Shown piece after piece: positions 11,469 through 16,074 of a stretch of 64,000 bases of DNA. Position 1 is the stretch's first letter. Every line of letters starts with the position of its first letter. The stretch lies in the NCBI GenBank assembly GCA_035544955.1, contig DASZZN010000014.1, forward strand, positions 62,001 to 126,000. Direction: 5' to 3'. The notes under the pieces were generated by a model. The model was not told where the DNA came from and searched no databases. It worked only from the letters and a program-made list of their open reading frames with translations. The stretch is from Candidatus Dormiibacterota bacterium. GTDB taxonomy: Bacteria; Chloroflexota; Dormibacteria; CF-121. Position numbers and translations under genes: made by a program.

Positions 11469-11534
11469 CGGGCTGGTACGGGCATATGTTGTGGCCAGCG
11501 CTGTCTGAAAACCCTACCGGCTGTGGTAAACTGC

Positions 11535-11563
11535 TTGACAGGCTACATCCTACGGCATACGAT
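11535..11563 (+). promoter_or_regulatory. Sigma-70 promoter of nrdJ
   Basis: A perfect -35 TTGACA (11535-11540), a 17-bp spacer and -10 TACGAT (11558-11563). Transcription would begin near 11570 and leave a leader of about 55 nt before the nrdJ ATG. This is the best housekeeping promoter in the window. I see no clear NrdR box or cobalamin riboswitch in the leader. Confidence 0.7.
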
Positions 11564-11623
11564 GTGGGCCGCTCTCCACCCCATCCCACCCCATCTCATT
11601 CCCACCCTACGGAGGTTTCATCG

Positions 11624-14416
11624 ATGGCCCGATCGACCCAAAAAACGTCAACTGAGCGACCCAACGTGACTGCGGCGGCCCCCGCCAGCGCCTCGAAGCG
11701 CAACCGAAACGGCCTCTCCTGGAAGCGGTACTTCACCCGCCCGGGTGTGGCGCCGTTCGACGAGGTCCAGTGGGAAATACGCGAGGCGTCCATCACCAAC
11801 GAAAAGGGTGAGGTCGTCTTCGAGCAGCACGACGTGGAGATCCCGACGACCTGGTCGGCGACCGCCACCAACGTCGTCGTCTCGAAGTACTTCCGTGGGG
11901 TAATTGGCACGCCCGAACGCGAGCGCAGCGTCAAGCAGTTGATCGGCCGCGTGGTGCGCACCATCCATGGGTGGGCGAACAAGCAGGGATACTTCGCGAC
12001 GCCGGAGGCCGCGGAGATCTTCCGCGATGAACTGACCCATCTGTTGGTGCACCAGAAGGCCGCCTTCAACAGCCCGGTCTGGTTCAACGCCGGCATCGAG
12101 CAACGTCCTCAACTTTCGGCTTGCTTCATCAACAAAATCGAGGACCGGATGGAGTCGATTCTCACCTTGGCCAAGACCGAGGGGATGCTCTTCAAGTACG
12201 GCTCGGGCACCGGCACCAACCTCTCGCCACTTCGCTCCTCGCGTGAGCTGCTCGCGGGTGGCGGAACGGCATCCGGCCCTGTCTCCTTCATGAAGGGCTT
12301 CGACGCCTTCGCCGGCGTGATCAAGTCCGGCGGCAAGACACGACGGGCGGCCAAGATGGTCATCCTCAACGTCGACCATCCCGACATCGTCGAGTTCATC
12401 AACTGCAAGGTCGAGGAGGAGCGCAAGGCCTGGACCCTGATCGAAGGCGGCTACGACTCGTCCTTCAACGGCCCTGCCTACAGCTCGATCTTCTTCCAGA
12501 ACTCCAACAACAGCGTCCGGGTCAAGGATGACTTCATGAAGGCCGTGGAGGAGGACGCCGATTGGCACACCTTCGCCATCACGACCGGCCAGATCATGGA
12601 CACCTACAAGGCGCGTGACCTGATGCGGATGATGGCCGATGCGGCGTGGGCCTGCGGCGATCCCGGACTGCAGTACGACACGACGGTGAACCACTGGCAC
12701 ACCAGCCCGAACACGGACCGGATCAACGCCTCCAACCCCTGCTCGGAGTACATGTTCCTCGACAACACCTCGTGCAACCTCGCCTCCATCAACCTGATGA
12801 AGTTCCTCGACGAGCGCGGCGAGTTCGACGTCGAGTCCTATCGCGAAGCCTGCCGGGTGCTGATCACCGCCCAGGAGATCCTGGTCGACAACGCCAGCTA
12901 CCCGACCGAGGCGATCACCCAGAACAGCAGGGACTTCCGGCCGCTCGGCCTCGGCTACGCCAACCTGGGCGCCCTGCTGATGGCGTCAGGCTTGCCCTAC
13001 GACAGTGATGCCGGTCGCGACGTGGCAGCCGCCCTCACCGCGGTGATGACCGGCGAGGCGTATGCCCAGTCGGCTCGCATCGCGCAGAAGAAAGGCCCCT
13101 TCAACGGCTTCGCGGTCAACCGCGAGCCCATGCTGCGCGTCATGGACCAGCACCGGAGCTCGGTCGACCACATCAACCCGGCGCATGTGCCGCTGCCACT
13201 GCTGAGCGCGGCGCGGGATGCGTGGGACAAGGCCTGCCAGCTGGGCGACCTCTATGGCTACCGCAACGCCCAGGCGACCGTGATCGCGCCCACGGGCACG
13301 ATCGGATTCATGATGGATTGCGACACCACCGGCATCGAGCCCGACATCGCCCTGGTCAAGTACAAGAAGCTGGTCGGCGGCGGCATGCTCAAGATCGTCA
13401 ACCAGACCGTGCCGATCGCCCTGCGCCGGATCGGCTATCCCGAGGCCCAGGTGTCCGAGATCCTCCAGTACATCGACGAAAACGACACCATCGAGGGTGC
13501 CCCGCACCTTCGGCCGGACGACCTGGCGGTCTTCGACTGCGCCTTCAAGCCGGCCAAGGGCTCCCGCACGATCCACTACATGGGGCACGTCAAGATGATG
13601 GCGGCGGCGCAACCCTTCATCTCCGGCGCGATCTCCAAGACCGTCAACATGCCCGAGCAGGCGACGCCCGAGGACATCATGGAGGTCTACCTGGAGGGAT
13701 GGCGCATGGGCCTCAAGGCGATCGCCATCTATCGCGACGGCTCCAAGCGCTCCCAGCCGCTCAACACGGCGCTGGACGACAAGAAGAAGGCCCGAACGAT
13801 CGCCGCGATCGCCACGGAGGCCCCCAGCGAGCCGGCGCGTGCCGTACGCCGCAAGCTGCTGGACGAGCGCCGGGCGATCACCCACAAGTTCGACATCCAG
13901 GGCCACGAGGGCTACATCACGGTCGGCATCTACGAGGACGGCACGCCCGGCGAGATCTTCCTGGTGATGTCCAAGGAAGGCAGCACCATCTCCGGGCTGA
14001 TGGATGCCTTCGCGACCAGCATCTCGCTGGCGCTCCAGTACGGTGTCCCGCTGGAAGTGCTGGTGAAGAAGTTCGCACACACCCGGTTCGAGCCCTCGGG
14101 CTTCACGAAGAACCCCGAAATCCCGATCGCGAAGTCGATCACCGACTACATCTTCCGCTGGCTCGCCTCGAAGTTCCTGAGTGGCACGCAGCAAGAAGCG
14201 ATCGGCATCGTACGCCGCGAGCCGATCGTCGAGATCCAGGCGACCGTCCCGGCCCCAGCACCGATCAAGCCGGCAACGGTCGATTCGAGCCCGATCAAGA
14301 TCAGTTTCGTGGGCCAGGAGGATGCGCCGGCGTGCTCGGACTGCGGCTCGATCATGATTCGCAACGGGACATGCTACAAGTGCCTCAACTGCGGCGGCAC
14401 TTCGGGTTGCTCTTAG
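11624..14416 (+). CDS. nrdJ: Adenosylcobalamin-dependent ribonucleotide reductase
   Basis: Class II (B12-dependent) reductase making deoxyribonucleotides without oxygen or a separate radical subunit. The protein has 930 aa. The substrate-site segments NSPVWFNAG, FKYGSGTGTN, NPCSEYMFLDNTSCNLAS and ATVIAPTGTIGFMMD are intact, and the C-terminus carries a Cys-rich zinc-ribbon/redox tail (CSDCG...CYKCLNCGG). The ATG at 11624 is chosen over longer in-frame starts because GGAGG lies 8 nt upstream. The window also contains two B12-dependent mutase subunits, so the cell must make or import cobalamin. Confidence 0.96.
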   Translation: MARSTQKTSTERPNVTAAAPASASKRNRNGLSWKRYFTRPGVAPFDEVQWEIREASITNEKGEVVFEQHDVEIPTTWSATATNVVVSKYFRGVIGTPERERSVKQLIGRVVRTIHGWANKQGYFATPEAAEIFRDELTHLLVHQKAAFNSPVWFNAGIEQRPQLSACFINKIEDRMESILTLAKTEGMLFKYGSGTGTNLSPLRSSRELLAGGGTASGPVSFMKGFDAFAGVIKSGGKTRRAAKMVILNVDHPDIVEFINCKVEEERKAWTLIEGGYDSSFNGPAYSSIFFQNSNNSVRVKDDFMKAVEEDADWHTFAITTGQIMDTYKARDLMRMMADAAWACGDPGLQYDTTVNHWHTSPNTDRINASNPCSEYMFLDNTSCNLASINLMKFLDERGEFDVESYREACRVLITAQEILVDNASYPTEAITQNSRDFRPLGLGYANLGALLMASGLPYDSDAGRDVAAALTAVMTGEAYAQSARIAQKKGPFNGFAVNREPMLRVMDQHRSSVDHINPAHVPLPLLSAARDAWDKACQLGDLYGYRNAQATVIAPTGTIGFMMDCDTTGIEPDIALVKYKKLVGGGMLKIVNQTVPIALRRIGYPEAQVSEILQYIDENDTIEGAPHLRPDDLAVFDCAFKPAKGSRTIHYMGHVKMMAAAQPFISGAISKTVNMPEQATPEDIMEVYLEGWRMGLKAIAIYRDGSKRSQPLNTALDDKKKARTIAAIATEAPSEPARAVRRKLLDERRAITHKFDIQGHEGYITVGIYEDGTPGEIFLVMSKEGSTISGLMDAFATSISLALQYGVPLEVLVKKFAHTRFEPSGFTKNPEIPIAKSITDYIFRWLASKFLSGTQQEAIGIVRREPIVEIQATVPAPAPIKPATVDSSPIKISFVGQEDAPACSDCGSIMIRNGTCYKCLNCGGTSGCS

Positions 14417-14439: not shown

Positions 14440-14610
14440 GTGGTCTCTTCCTCTCAACCCTCGATCACACTGCAAACGCATCCGTTGTGGTCGCATGAAG
14501 GTCCGCAATGTCCGTGCGGAGGCGCGACCGACTGGGATGGACGCAAATTTCGGTGTCGTGGGTGCGGTCTCTATTACGAAACCTGCTGTGATGGCGGTCG
14601 CTGTTCATGA
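14440..14610 (+). CDS. 56-aa zinc-ribbon protein
   Basis: A small protein starting at GTG 14440, 23 nt after nrdJ, with a strong AGGAGGAG ribosome site. It contains CPCGG, CRGCG and CDGGRC, eight cysteines in all, resembling a compact zinc ribbon or the Cys-rich tail of NrdJ itself. Co-transcription with nrdJ and the shared Cys pattern suggest a redox or metal accessory role, which is inference. Its last 26 codons are duplicated at 15039-15114. Confidence 0.65.
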   Translation: MVSSSQPSITLQTHPLWSHEGPQCPCGGATDWDGRKFRCRGCGLYYETCCDGGRCS

Positions 14611-15038
14611 TCGCGGAAAAATTCTGAAAATTTCTCTTCATTGACCCGCGCGGACCCGCACGCGGCCCGTTATTGCCGCCGCTCGCGAAAAAAATTGGGC
14701 CGAGAGTATGCAAAGCGGCTCAATTCATGCTATGGTCGCTCTACATGAGCGCTGAGCCGCGCTCTGATCGTCGCGTTGATCAGGGCGAGGACCTGAAGAA
14801 GGGCAACAGTCAAAGAACTCCGTCGGCCACATCGATGATCATCGACGCGTGGTCTCACGGATCCCGAGGGTTGATCGCGACACGCCGTCGCTCCTCTCGT
14901 TTTTCTCTCTCCACTTTGCTTCCGGTACCCGGCCTCGCCGGCGCCCGCGCGTCCACGGACCCCGTGGCGCTCACGCGCGTTTGGCGGCGGCGTCTAAGCG
15001 GCCGACCGGGAGAATCTTGCTAAGAAGGAGGTGAGCCC
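14535..15038 (+). repeat. Tandem duplication, unit 1
   Basis: The unit begins at the 13-mer GGATGGACGCAAA inside the zinc-ribbon gene and runs to the next copy of that 13-mer. It holds the gene's 3' end, a G+C-rich stretch, an extended -10 TGCTATGGT (14728-14736), a long non-coding body with strong hairpins (14832-14845, 14946-14979) and the ribosome site AAGGAGGTGA (15025-15034). Unit 2 is highly similar, 11 nt shorter, with the length difference confined to about 14640-14670. Confidence 0.85.
14728..15020 (+). ncRNA. Candidate structured RNA, copy 1
   Basis: From the extended -10 (TGCTATGGT) to the ribosome site the two copies match over almost 300 nt without an indel. A reading frame of about 97 codons is open in both, but 14 codon differences are non-synonymous and 4 synonymous, near the neutral expectation, so protein coding is not supported. 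Stems are kept while loops change: CCACG/CGTGG has loop GACCC here and TTACC in copy 2; TCGAT/ATCGA becomes TCGAT/GTCGA (a U-G pair). It could be an independent RNA or a long mRNA leader. Confidence 0.45.
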
Positions 15039-15114
15039 GGATGGCCGCAAATTCCGCTGTCGCGGCTGCGGCCTTTACTACGAAACCTGCGGCGACGATA
15101 GTCGCTGTCCATGA
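15031..15114 (+). pseudogene. Duplicated 3' fragment of the zinc-ribbon gene
   Basis: The frame reads SPDGRKFRCRGCGLYYETC and ends at the TGA at 15112-15114, repeating the C-terminus of the 56-aa zinc-ribbon protein without its N-terminal CPCGG part. A GTG at 15031 could start a 27-aa peptide, but it lies inside the ribosome site. The well-placed ATG at 15041 reads out of frame into a basic 65-aa chain. It is best explained as a by-product of the tandem duplication. Confidence 0.55.
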
Positions 15115-15531
15115 CCCTGGAAAAATTCTGAAAAATTCTCTTCGCTCACCGCGTGCGGCCCGTCATTGCCGCCGCTCGCGAAAAAAATTGGGCCGAGAGT
15201 ATGCAAAGCGGCTCGATTCATGCTATGGTCGCACTTAATGAGCGCCGAGTCGCGCTTTGATCGTCGCGTTGATCAGGGCGAGGACCTGAAGAAGGGCAAC
15301 ACTCAAAGAACTCCGCGGTCCAGGTCGATGGTTGTCGACGCATGGCCTCACGGATCCCGAGGGTCGATCGCGACGCGCCGTCGCTCCCCTCATTTCTCTC
15401 TCTCCACTTTGCTTCCGGTACCCGGCCTCGCCGGCGCCCGCGCGTCCACGTTACCCGTGGCGCTCACGCGCGTTTGGCGGCGGCGTCACAGCGGCCGACC
15501 GGGAGAATCTTGCTAAGAAGGAGGTGAGCCC
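15039..15531 (+). repeat. Tandem duplication, unit 2
   Basis: Second copy of the unit that starts at 14535, offset 493-504 nt. It begins at GGATGGCCGCAAA (15039-15051) and ends where the same 13-mer reappears at 15532-15544 as the start of the lysine-rich ORF. It includes a second extended -10 TGCTATGGT (15221-15229), the same hairpins (15325-15338, 15439-15472) and ribosome site (15518-15527). Confidence 0.85.
15221..15513 (+). ncRNA. Candidate structured RNA, copy 2
   Basis: The counterpart of the element at 14728-15020. The stem CGCGCGT-CCACG...CGTGG-CGCTC-ACGCGCG (15439-15472) is identical except for its loop, and the 42-nt block from GATCGTCGCG to GGGCAAC is unchanged. It directly precedes the ribosome site of the 21-aa lysine-rich ORF, so this copy at least may be its leader. 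Confidence 0.45.
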
Positions 15532-15533
15532 GG

Positions 15534-15599
15534 ATGGCCGCAAAGAAGAAAGCAGGCGGAAAGAAGAAAGCCGCGAAGAAGTCGTCGAAGAAGAAGTAG
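15534..15599 (+). CDS. 21-aa lysine-rich microprotein
   Basis: An ATG with a near-perfect ribosome site (AAGGAGGTGA, 15518-15527) starts a 21-residue peptide in which 12 residues are Lys (MAAKKKAGGKKK then AAKKSSKKK) and the rest are Ala, Gly or Ser. The composition recalls the C-terminal tails of bacterial histone-like proteins. A strong hairpin terminator follows 27 nt later. The peptide could bind nucleic acid; this is a guess from charge alone. The ribosome site plus terminator make translation plausible despite the size. Confidence 0.55.
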   Translation: MAAKKKAGGKKKAAKKSSKKK

Positions 15600-15625
15600 G
15601 TTAGCTTTTGAAGCTGACTTCAATA

Positions 15626-15651
15626 CAGCCGGTGCCTTCGGGCGCCGGCTG
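15626..15651 (+). terminator. Hairpin terminator with UUCG tetraloop
   Basis: CAGCCGGTGCC and GGCGCCGGCTG pair over 11 bp (one G-U) around a TTCG loop. Only a weak T-rich tail (TAGCATTTG) follows. It closes the 14.4-15.6 kb locus before the next gene. Confidence 0.7.
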
Positions 15652-15666
15652 TAGCATTTGTGGGCG

Positions 15667-16074
15667 ATGATCGATCTCGAGCGCGCCCGCCACTTCCTCA
15701 AGGTGCGTCACGACGGCATCCTGGCCACCATCAAGCGTGATGGCCGCCCCCAGCTCTCCAACATCTTGTATTTCATGGATGACGATGGCCGGGTGAAGGT
15801 CTCGGTCACCCAAACCCGCGCCAAGACGCACAACCTTCGTCGCGATCCACGGGCCAGCCTGCACGTCCAGGGCCGTGACCGCTACGAATACCTGGTGGCG
15901 GAGGGGACGGCGCAGTTTATCGAGGGCGACGAGCTCCCGGAGGCGCTCCGCCACTACTATCGCAAGGTCCGCGGCGAACACCCCGACTGGGCCGAATACG
16001 ACGCCGCCATGATCGCGGAGCAGCGCCTGCTGCTCTCCATCTCGGTCGAGCGCGCCTACGGCCAGCTGCGCTAG
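15667..16074 (+). CDS. PPOX-class (F420-type) oxidoreductase
   Basis: A 135-aa split-barrel flavin/deazaflavin protein of the pyridoxamine-5'-phosphate-oxidase superfamily. The pattern HDGILATIKRDGRPQLSNI (about residues 15-33), then KVSVTQTRAKTHNLRRDPR and EGTAQFIEG, is that of TIGR03618/F420-dependent members common in actinobacteria and Chloroflexota, which reduce various small molecules with F420H2. The ATG at 15667 is chosen over a TTG at 15658 because the alignment starts at IDLERARHFL. The substrate is unknown. It converges with the AsnC-domain gene, overlapping its stop. Confidence 0.82.
   Translation: MIDLERARHFLKVRHDGILATIKRDGRPQLSNILYFMDDDGRVKVSVTQTRAKTHNLRRDPRASLHVQGRDRYEYLVAEGTAQFIEGDELPEALRHYYRKVRGEHPDWAEYDAAMIAEQRLLLSISVERAYGQLR

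Follow-up and report, generated by a model that had tools for sequence, protein, structure and literature searches.

A conserved bacterial gene for a 21-residue lysine-rich peptide that may act as a free histone H1-like tail

Introduction

Can an open reading frame of 21 codons, about half of them for lysine, be a gene in its own right, and what would such a peptide do in the cell? The question is raised by a locus in the window, i.e. the whole 64-kb stretch of DNA that was analyzed, whose lysine-rich frame we refer to as polyK. Annotation pipelines commonly drop ORFs as short as this one, and a conserved polycation gene of such a size would thereby escape notice. In the literature searched, whose coverage was limited and is not proof of absence, we found no report of free polylysine genes.

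Results and Discussion

Organization of the locus

The features of the locus and its surroundings are as follows (evidence in brackets).

11486..14416, + strand: class II B12-dependent ribonucleotide reductase, upstream, context only (PF02867, 1.4e-144; PF08471, 4e-20)
14535..15047, + strand: leader duplicate with Shine-Dalgarno (SD) sequence and ATG (direct repeats 91% and 80% identical, spacing 493/504)
15190..15238, + strand: presumed promoter region with an A-tract just upstream and an extended -10-like TGCTATGGT (sequence, partial conservation in the genus)
15239..15409, + strand: 5' portion of the leader, with little conservation beyond the genus (pairwise identity)
15410..15506, + strand: leader hairpin, nearly invariant, a long imperfect stem of 34 pairs (alignment, covariance model)
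15518-15527, + strand: SD AAGGAGGTGA (read from the sequence)
15534..15599, + strand: polyK gene, 21 aa, MAAKKKAGGKKKAAKKSSKKK (sequence, alignment, ORF scan)
15624..15653, + strand: GC hairpin 3' of polyK with a TTCG cap, terminator-like, weak U-tract (sequence, homologs)
15667..16074, + strand: next gene, pyridoxamine-phosphate-oxidase-like (PNPOx-like, PF01243), context only (Pfam E = 4.5e-14)

An earlier note on this DNA had described a 21-codon frame with an SD and a well-spaced ATG, and the locus agrees: six bases separate the SD from the ATG (15534-15536), and the stop ends at 15599. The same note counted 12 lysines; the peptide contains 11, and otherwise consists of Ala, Gly and Ser only. 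Among all ORFs of 15-45 aa in the window, polyK alone reaches 30% Lys, and an SD precedes it; the reversed window, taken as a control, yielded one ORF with at least 40% Lys, without an SD. The combination of SD and ATG occurs twice in the window with zero mismatches, owing to a second copy of leader and start at 15025-15043.

The hairpin behind the gene has arms of 13 nt with 92% complementarity around the 4-nt loop. Since the T-tract that follows (GCATTTGTGG) is weak, the hairpin is missing from the list of a simple terminator scan. Of the UUCG-capped terminator proposed earlier, the capped hairpin is thus present, while transcription termination at this site is likely rather than certain. 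The PNPOx-like gene starts 13 nt past the hairpin, and positions 15653-15667 offer neither a clear SD nor room for a promoter, which suggests that in this family it is expressed by read-through or as a leaderless transcript. A small cysteine-rich frame also lies upstream of polyK.

As previously proposed, the leader is structured (z = -2.5). No consensus sigma-70 promoter was matched in a scan of the locus, so that the promoter at 15190..15238 is a presumed one, from which transcription would start near 15235. A search of the leader against Rfam 15 gave nothing at the gathering threshold and one match at chance level (13.9 bits, E 0.58). A possible upstream ORF within the leader (MSAESR...), which would begin at an ATG near 15239 and stop shortly ahead of the SD, was rejected because the 5' part of the leader is poorly conserved and contains indels in other genera.

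The leader is present in two tandem copies (14535-15047 and 15039-15538), whose two duplication borders join at similar sequence, GATGGcCGCAAA. The first copy does not lead into polyK; it enters a spurious 65-aa frame (MAANSAVAA...) in a truncated zinc-ribbon-like gene. The duplication is therefore lineage-specific, and among the genomes compared it is unique to that of the window. A dispersed element was rejected as an explanation: the whole genome holds just the two tandem copies.

Conservation in the family of the window

The analysis covers 110 genomes of the class, grouped into four families with the working labels f1 (18 genomes), f2 (32), f3 (42) and f4 (18). All 18 f1 genomes, i.e. the window's own and 17 close relatives, contain an intact polyK; the relatives include 'Chloroflexi bacterium' MAGs from soil. 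The same peptide is encoded in 13 of 17 f1 sequences, and of the ten coding sites that vary, eight are third positions with synonymous changes (binomial p = 0.0034 for an expectation of one third). Within the genus the start codon is ATG; three other genera use GTG, which a 1-nt deletion in the spacer has shifted; the stop is always TAG or TAA; and the sole indel is an in-frame deletion of 3 nt in one genome. Identity within the family is concentrated in islands, namely the leader hairpin (0.91), the SD, the ORF (0.94) and the terminator hairpin (0.89), separated by spacers at 0.67. Judged by these substitutions, the polyK ORF is under purifying selection with constraint at the amino-acid level, and polyK is a real protein-coding gene, probably a well expressed one.

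The 97-nt leader hairpin spans four genera with an identity of 0.96 in the genus, and its pairs are retained in the 18 sequences except a few, the changes falling into loops or producing G-U pairs; mean pairwise identity of the 5' part of the leader (15239..15409) is 0.83 in the genus and 0.68 in the family. The hairpin probably controls the level of polyK. Its near-invariance in f1 would also suit a non-coding RNA with an incidental ORF. We regard this explanation as extremely unlikely, given the third-position bias of the substitutions, the in-frame deletion and the switch between ATG and GTG, and given that the model of the f1 leader misses the leaders of f3, in which ORF and SD persist.

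Distribution in the class

A search pattern that combines an SD with a start codon and Lys codons matched in 44 of the 110 genomes, its reversed version in none of them (0 of 110). With further searches, the polyK unit was located in 30 of the 42 f3 genomes; in total, about 45 relatives carry polyK. The f3 peptides are 21-27 aa long (MMAKKKAAKKPAKKAAKKSSKKK and variants); each has a strong SD upstream and a GC hairpin downstream, behind which T-rich runs occur. Several f3 genomes possess second copies, either elsewhere or in tandem. Their leaders are long as well, about 215-285 nt from a TTGACGT box, and the covariance model of the leader hairpin, which matches at f1 loci only, found no f3 counterpart and hence no homology between the leaders of the two families. 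The f3 loci lie between alpha/beta-hydrolase genes and a RecA-like/Y-polymerase pair. Because neighbors and leader differ from those in f1, it is the coding unit that is conserved and not the leader RNA. Homology of the f1 and f3 copies is likely rather than proven, since the composition is of low complexity.

This distribution bears on two proposals of the earlier note. A self-contained tiny gene is what the coding-type substitutions, the retained starts and stops, and the SD and hairpin at every copy describe. Broken frames beneath a conserved upstream RNA, which had been named as grounds for abandoning that idea, were encountered in none of about 50 copies; the reverse was seen, the ORF being kept where the leaders of f1 and f3 differ.

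The runs of Lys codons directly followed by a terminator hairpin, together with the short distance to the next gene in f1, also recall a transcription attenuator with a lysine-rich leader peptide. The downstream gene in f1 is PNPOx-like and not one of lysine metabolism, however, and at no fewer than six f3 loci, in varying contexts, polyK is followed by a gene of opposite orientation (immediately 3' of some copies, one that we take to be glycine-oxidase-like). Co-directional genes for the cognate amino acid are not found downstream at these loci, and the peptide itself is constrained; a lysine attenuator is therefore ruled out by context, and we give this idea next to no weight.

In 12 of the 42 f3 genomes, polyK was not found by patterns, DNA search and inspection of five syntenic sites, at which the gene is absent in the polyK-negative genera; nor was the nucleoid protein HU found in these 12. 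Relaxed patterns retrieved no further members from f2 and f4. Outside the class, the pattern occurs in one of about 345 sampled genomes of the phylum, and in one of 60 genomes of the Chloroflexota class to which that genome belongs. This look-alike (L199, 1051-1092, - strand) encodes 13 aa, MAAKKKAAKKKKK, with an SD and a strong hairpin followed by T7.

Relation to HU and ribosomal protein bS20

Canonical HU (PF00216) was found in 28 of 32 f2 genomes and in all 18 f4 genomes (46 of 50), all of them without polyK, and in only one of 18 f1 and one of 42 f3 genomes (2 of 60). PolyK occurs mostly in genomes where canonical HU was not found (Fisher p = 9e-15, a value that ignores phylogeny); the complementarity, numerically strong, comes from few clades and may reflect just one or two events at the level of clades. 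Assembly gaps do not explain the absence of HU, because the same search recovered ribosomal protein bS20 from 103 of the 110 genomes. The HU matches in G015 and G063 sit on contigs of 5.5 and 4 kb and are of a sequence type that, to our eye, looks foreign. Most f1 genomes carry a divergent, f1-specific HU-like protein that scores about 35 bits to PF00216 (L147, 489-974, + strand). The 12 f3 genomes with neither gene imply that polyK is not an obligatory substitute for HU.

In this class, bS20 bears long C-terminal tails rich in Lys, Ala and Pro, in genomes with and without polyK alike (L213, L214, L238 and others; the motif used located bS20 in only 17 of 40 loci). The idea that polyK is a detached bS20 tail was rejected on this ground. 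The same tails make an RNA target for polyK possible, and the main rival to our interpretation is a ribosome- or RNA-associated polycation, similar in size to bTHX or eL41, that binds rRNA or mRNA and not DNA. Size, charge and the strong SD agree with it. We consider it unlikely, since polyK is absent from f2, f4 and 12 of 42 f3 genomes, whereas near-universality is expected of small ribosomal proteins; length (13-27 aa) and repeat number vary, and some genomes have two copies; the bS20 tails occur irrespective of polyK; and polyK has none of the Arg-rich or aromatic residues that are typical of bTHX and eL41.

Likeness to known systems and proposed function

None of four polyK peptides matched a Pfam family at E values up to 10, and none scored above the cut-off for the H1-like nucleoprotein HC2 (PF07382); with 21 residues and no Pfam match, the peptide also falls outside HU/IHF (PF00216), a fold of about 90 aa. 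What it shares with known proteins is composition, as the earlier comparison to a free histone-like tail anticipated. With KKAAKK in f1, KAAKKPAKKAAKK in f3 and about 50% Lys, it corresponds to the KAAKK/PAKK motifs of HupB and H1 tails (PMC5676037), and the Lys-rich tail of HupB is required for nucleoid association (PMC5676037; PMC11229371). The actinobacterial HU tails (HupB, HupS) have KAAK/PAKK motifs, KK doublets and a disordered polycation in common with polyK, which we likewise assume from its composition to be disordered. In HupB and HupS, however, the tail belongs to a protein with an HU fold, while polyK would be a free product of 21-27 aa with no HU domain: attachment to a DNA-binding domain was found nowhere, every copy having its own SD, start and stop. 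AlgP and chlamydial HC2 share the low-complexity Lys/Ala/Pro composition, but are at least 150 aa long and contain other domains. Protamines, bTHX and eL41 are, like polyK, very short, highly basic products of independent genes, for which we claim no homology; unlike polyK, they are Arg-rich or structured.

Based on the HupB-tail-like composition and motifs, and on KPAA peptides of AlgP that bind DNA in vitro (PMC9239181), we favor a free polycation that binds nucleic acid. The proposed transcription unit consists of a long leader, a near-perfect SD, the tiny ORF and a hairpin terminator, and would yield a disordered polycation of 21-27 residues working like a detached C-terminal tail of the histone H1/HupB type. 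Such a peptide would act on nucleic acid irrespective of its sequence, neutralizing and bridging it; the most likely substrate is the chromosome, in lineages for which no canonical HU was found. We put the probability of this reading, a real gene for a free H1/HupB-tail-like polycation acting on nucleic acid and most likely on the chromosome, at roughly 55%. The gene, its conservation, its architecture and its distribution complementary to that of HU are shown by the comparisons above; composition and distribution suggest the function, and expression, a DNA target in preference to RNA or polyphosphate, and a functional link to the absence of HU are inferred. More tentative, and in our opinion doubtful, is the further step that in two families this 'chromatin tail' takes over part of the packing role of HU, which is missing in f3 and highly diverged in f1.

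Two other roles have to be weighed against a chromosomal one. AlgP, whose H1-like Lys-rich tail associates with polyphosphate granules and has been proposed to interact with polyphosphate (PMC9239181), offers a precedent for a peptide that would bind polyphosphate, RNA condensates or storage granules in the manner of the AlgP/PhaF KPAA tails, e.g. as a counter-ion during starvation or desiccation; polyK has no granule-binding domain, and we hold this role to be rather improbable. A translated peptide serving export, signaling, antimicrobial action or as a proteolysis tag seems very improbable, as polyK lacks a signal sequence as well as the hydrophobic residues that an amphipathic or membrane-active peptide would need.

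If polyK does bind the chromosome, a DNA-binding domain is dispensable for the action of an H1-like tail, and this may explain how a whole bacterial family manages without detectable HU. Its mode of action would probably be of a known kind, that of an H1-like tail; the novelty lies in a free-standing, conserved and duplicated microprotein gene, of which we found no report in the literature searched. Should the 'chromatin tail' interpretation be true, bacteria would possess a protamine-like minimal nucleoid protein that annotation has overlooked owing to its size. Given chromosome binding, a cheap synthetic peptide would be enough to put the question of what the minimal nucleoid protein is to a direct test.

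Other basic proteins of the class

The HU tails of two f2 genomes (G018 and G020) match polyK DNA, the tail in G020 being AKKTAAKKSAKKTARR. A separate f1 protein of 151 aa gives a weak HC2 match (E 6e-5), below the cut-off. The genome of the window and its relatives encode an H1-like protein of 150-166 aa with STAKR repeats, a weak HC2 match and a conserved C-terminus, SERIKIGERPPEQTWPGGG (L160, G000:C34:146737-147204; L152-L156), which has its own SD and a terminator-like hairpin.
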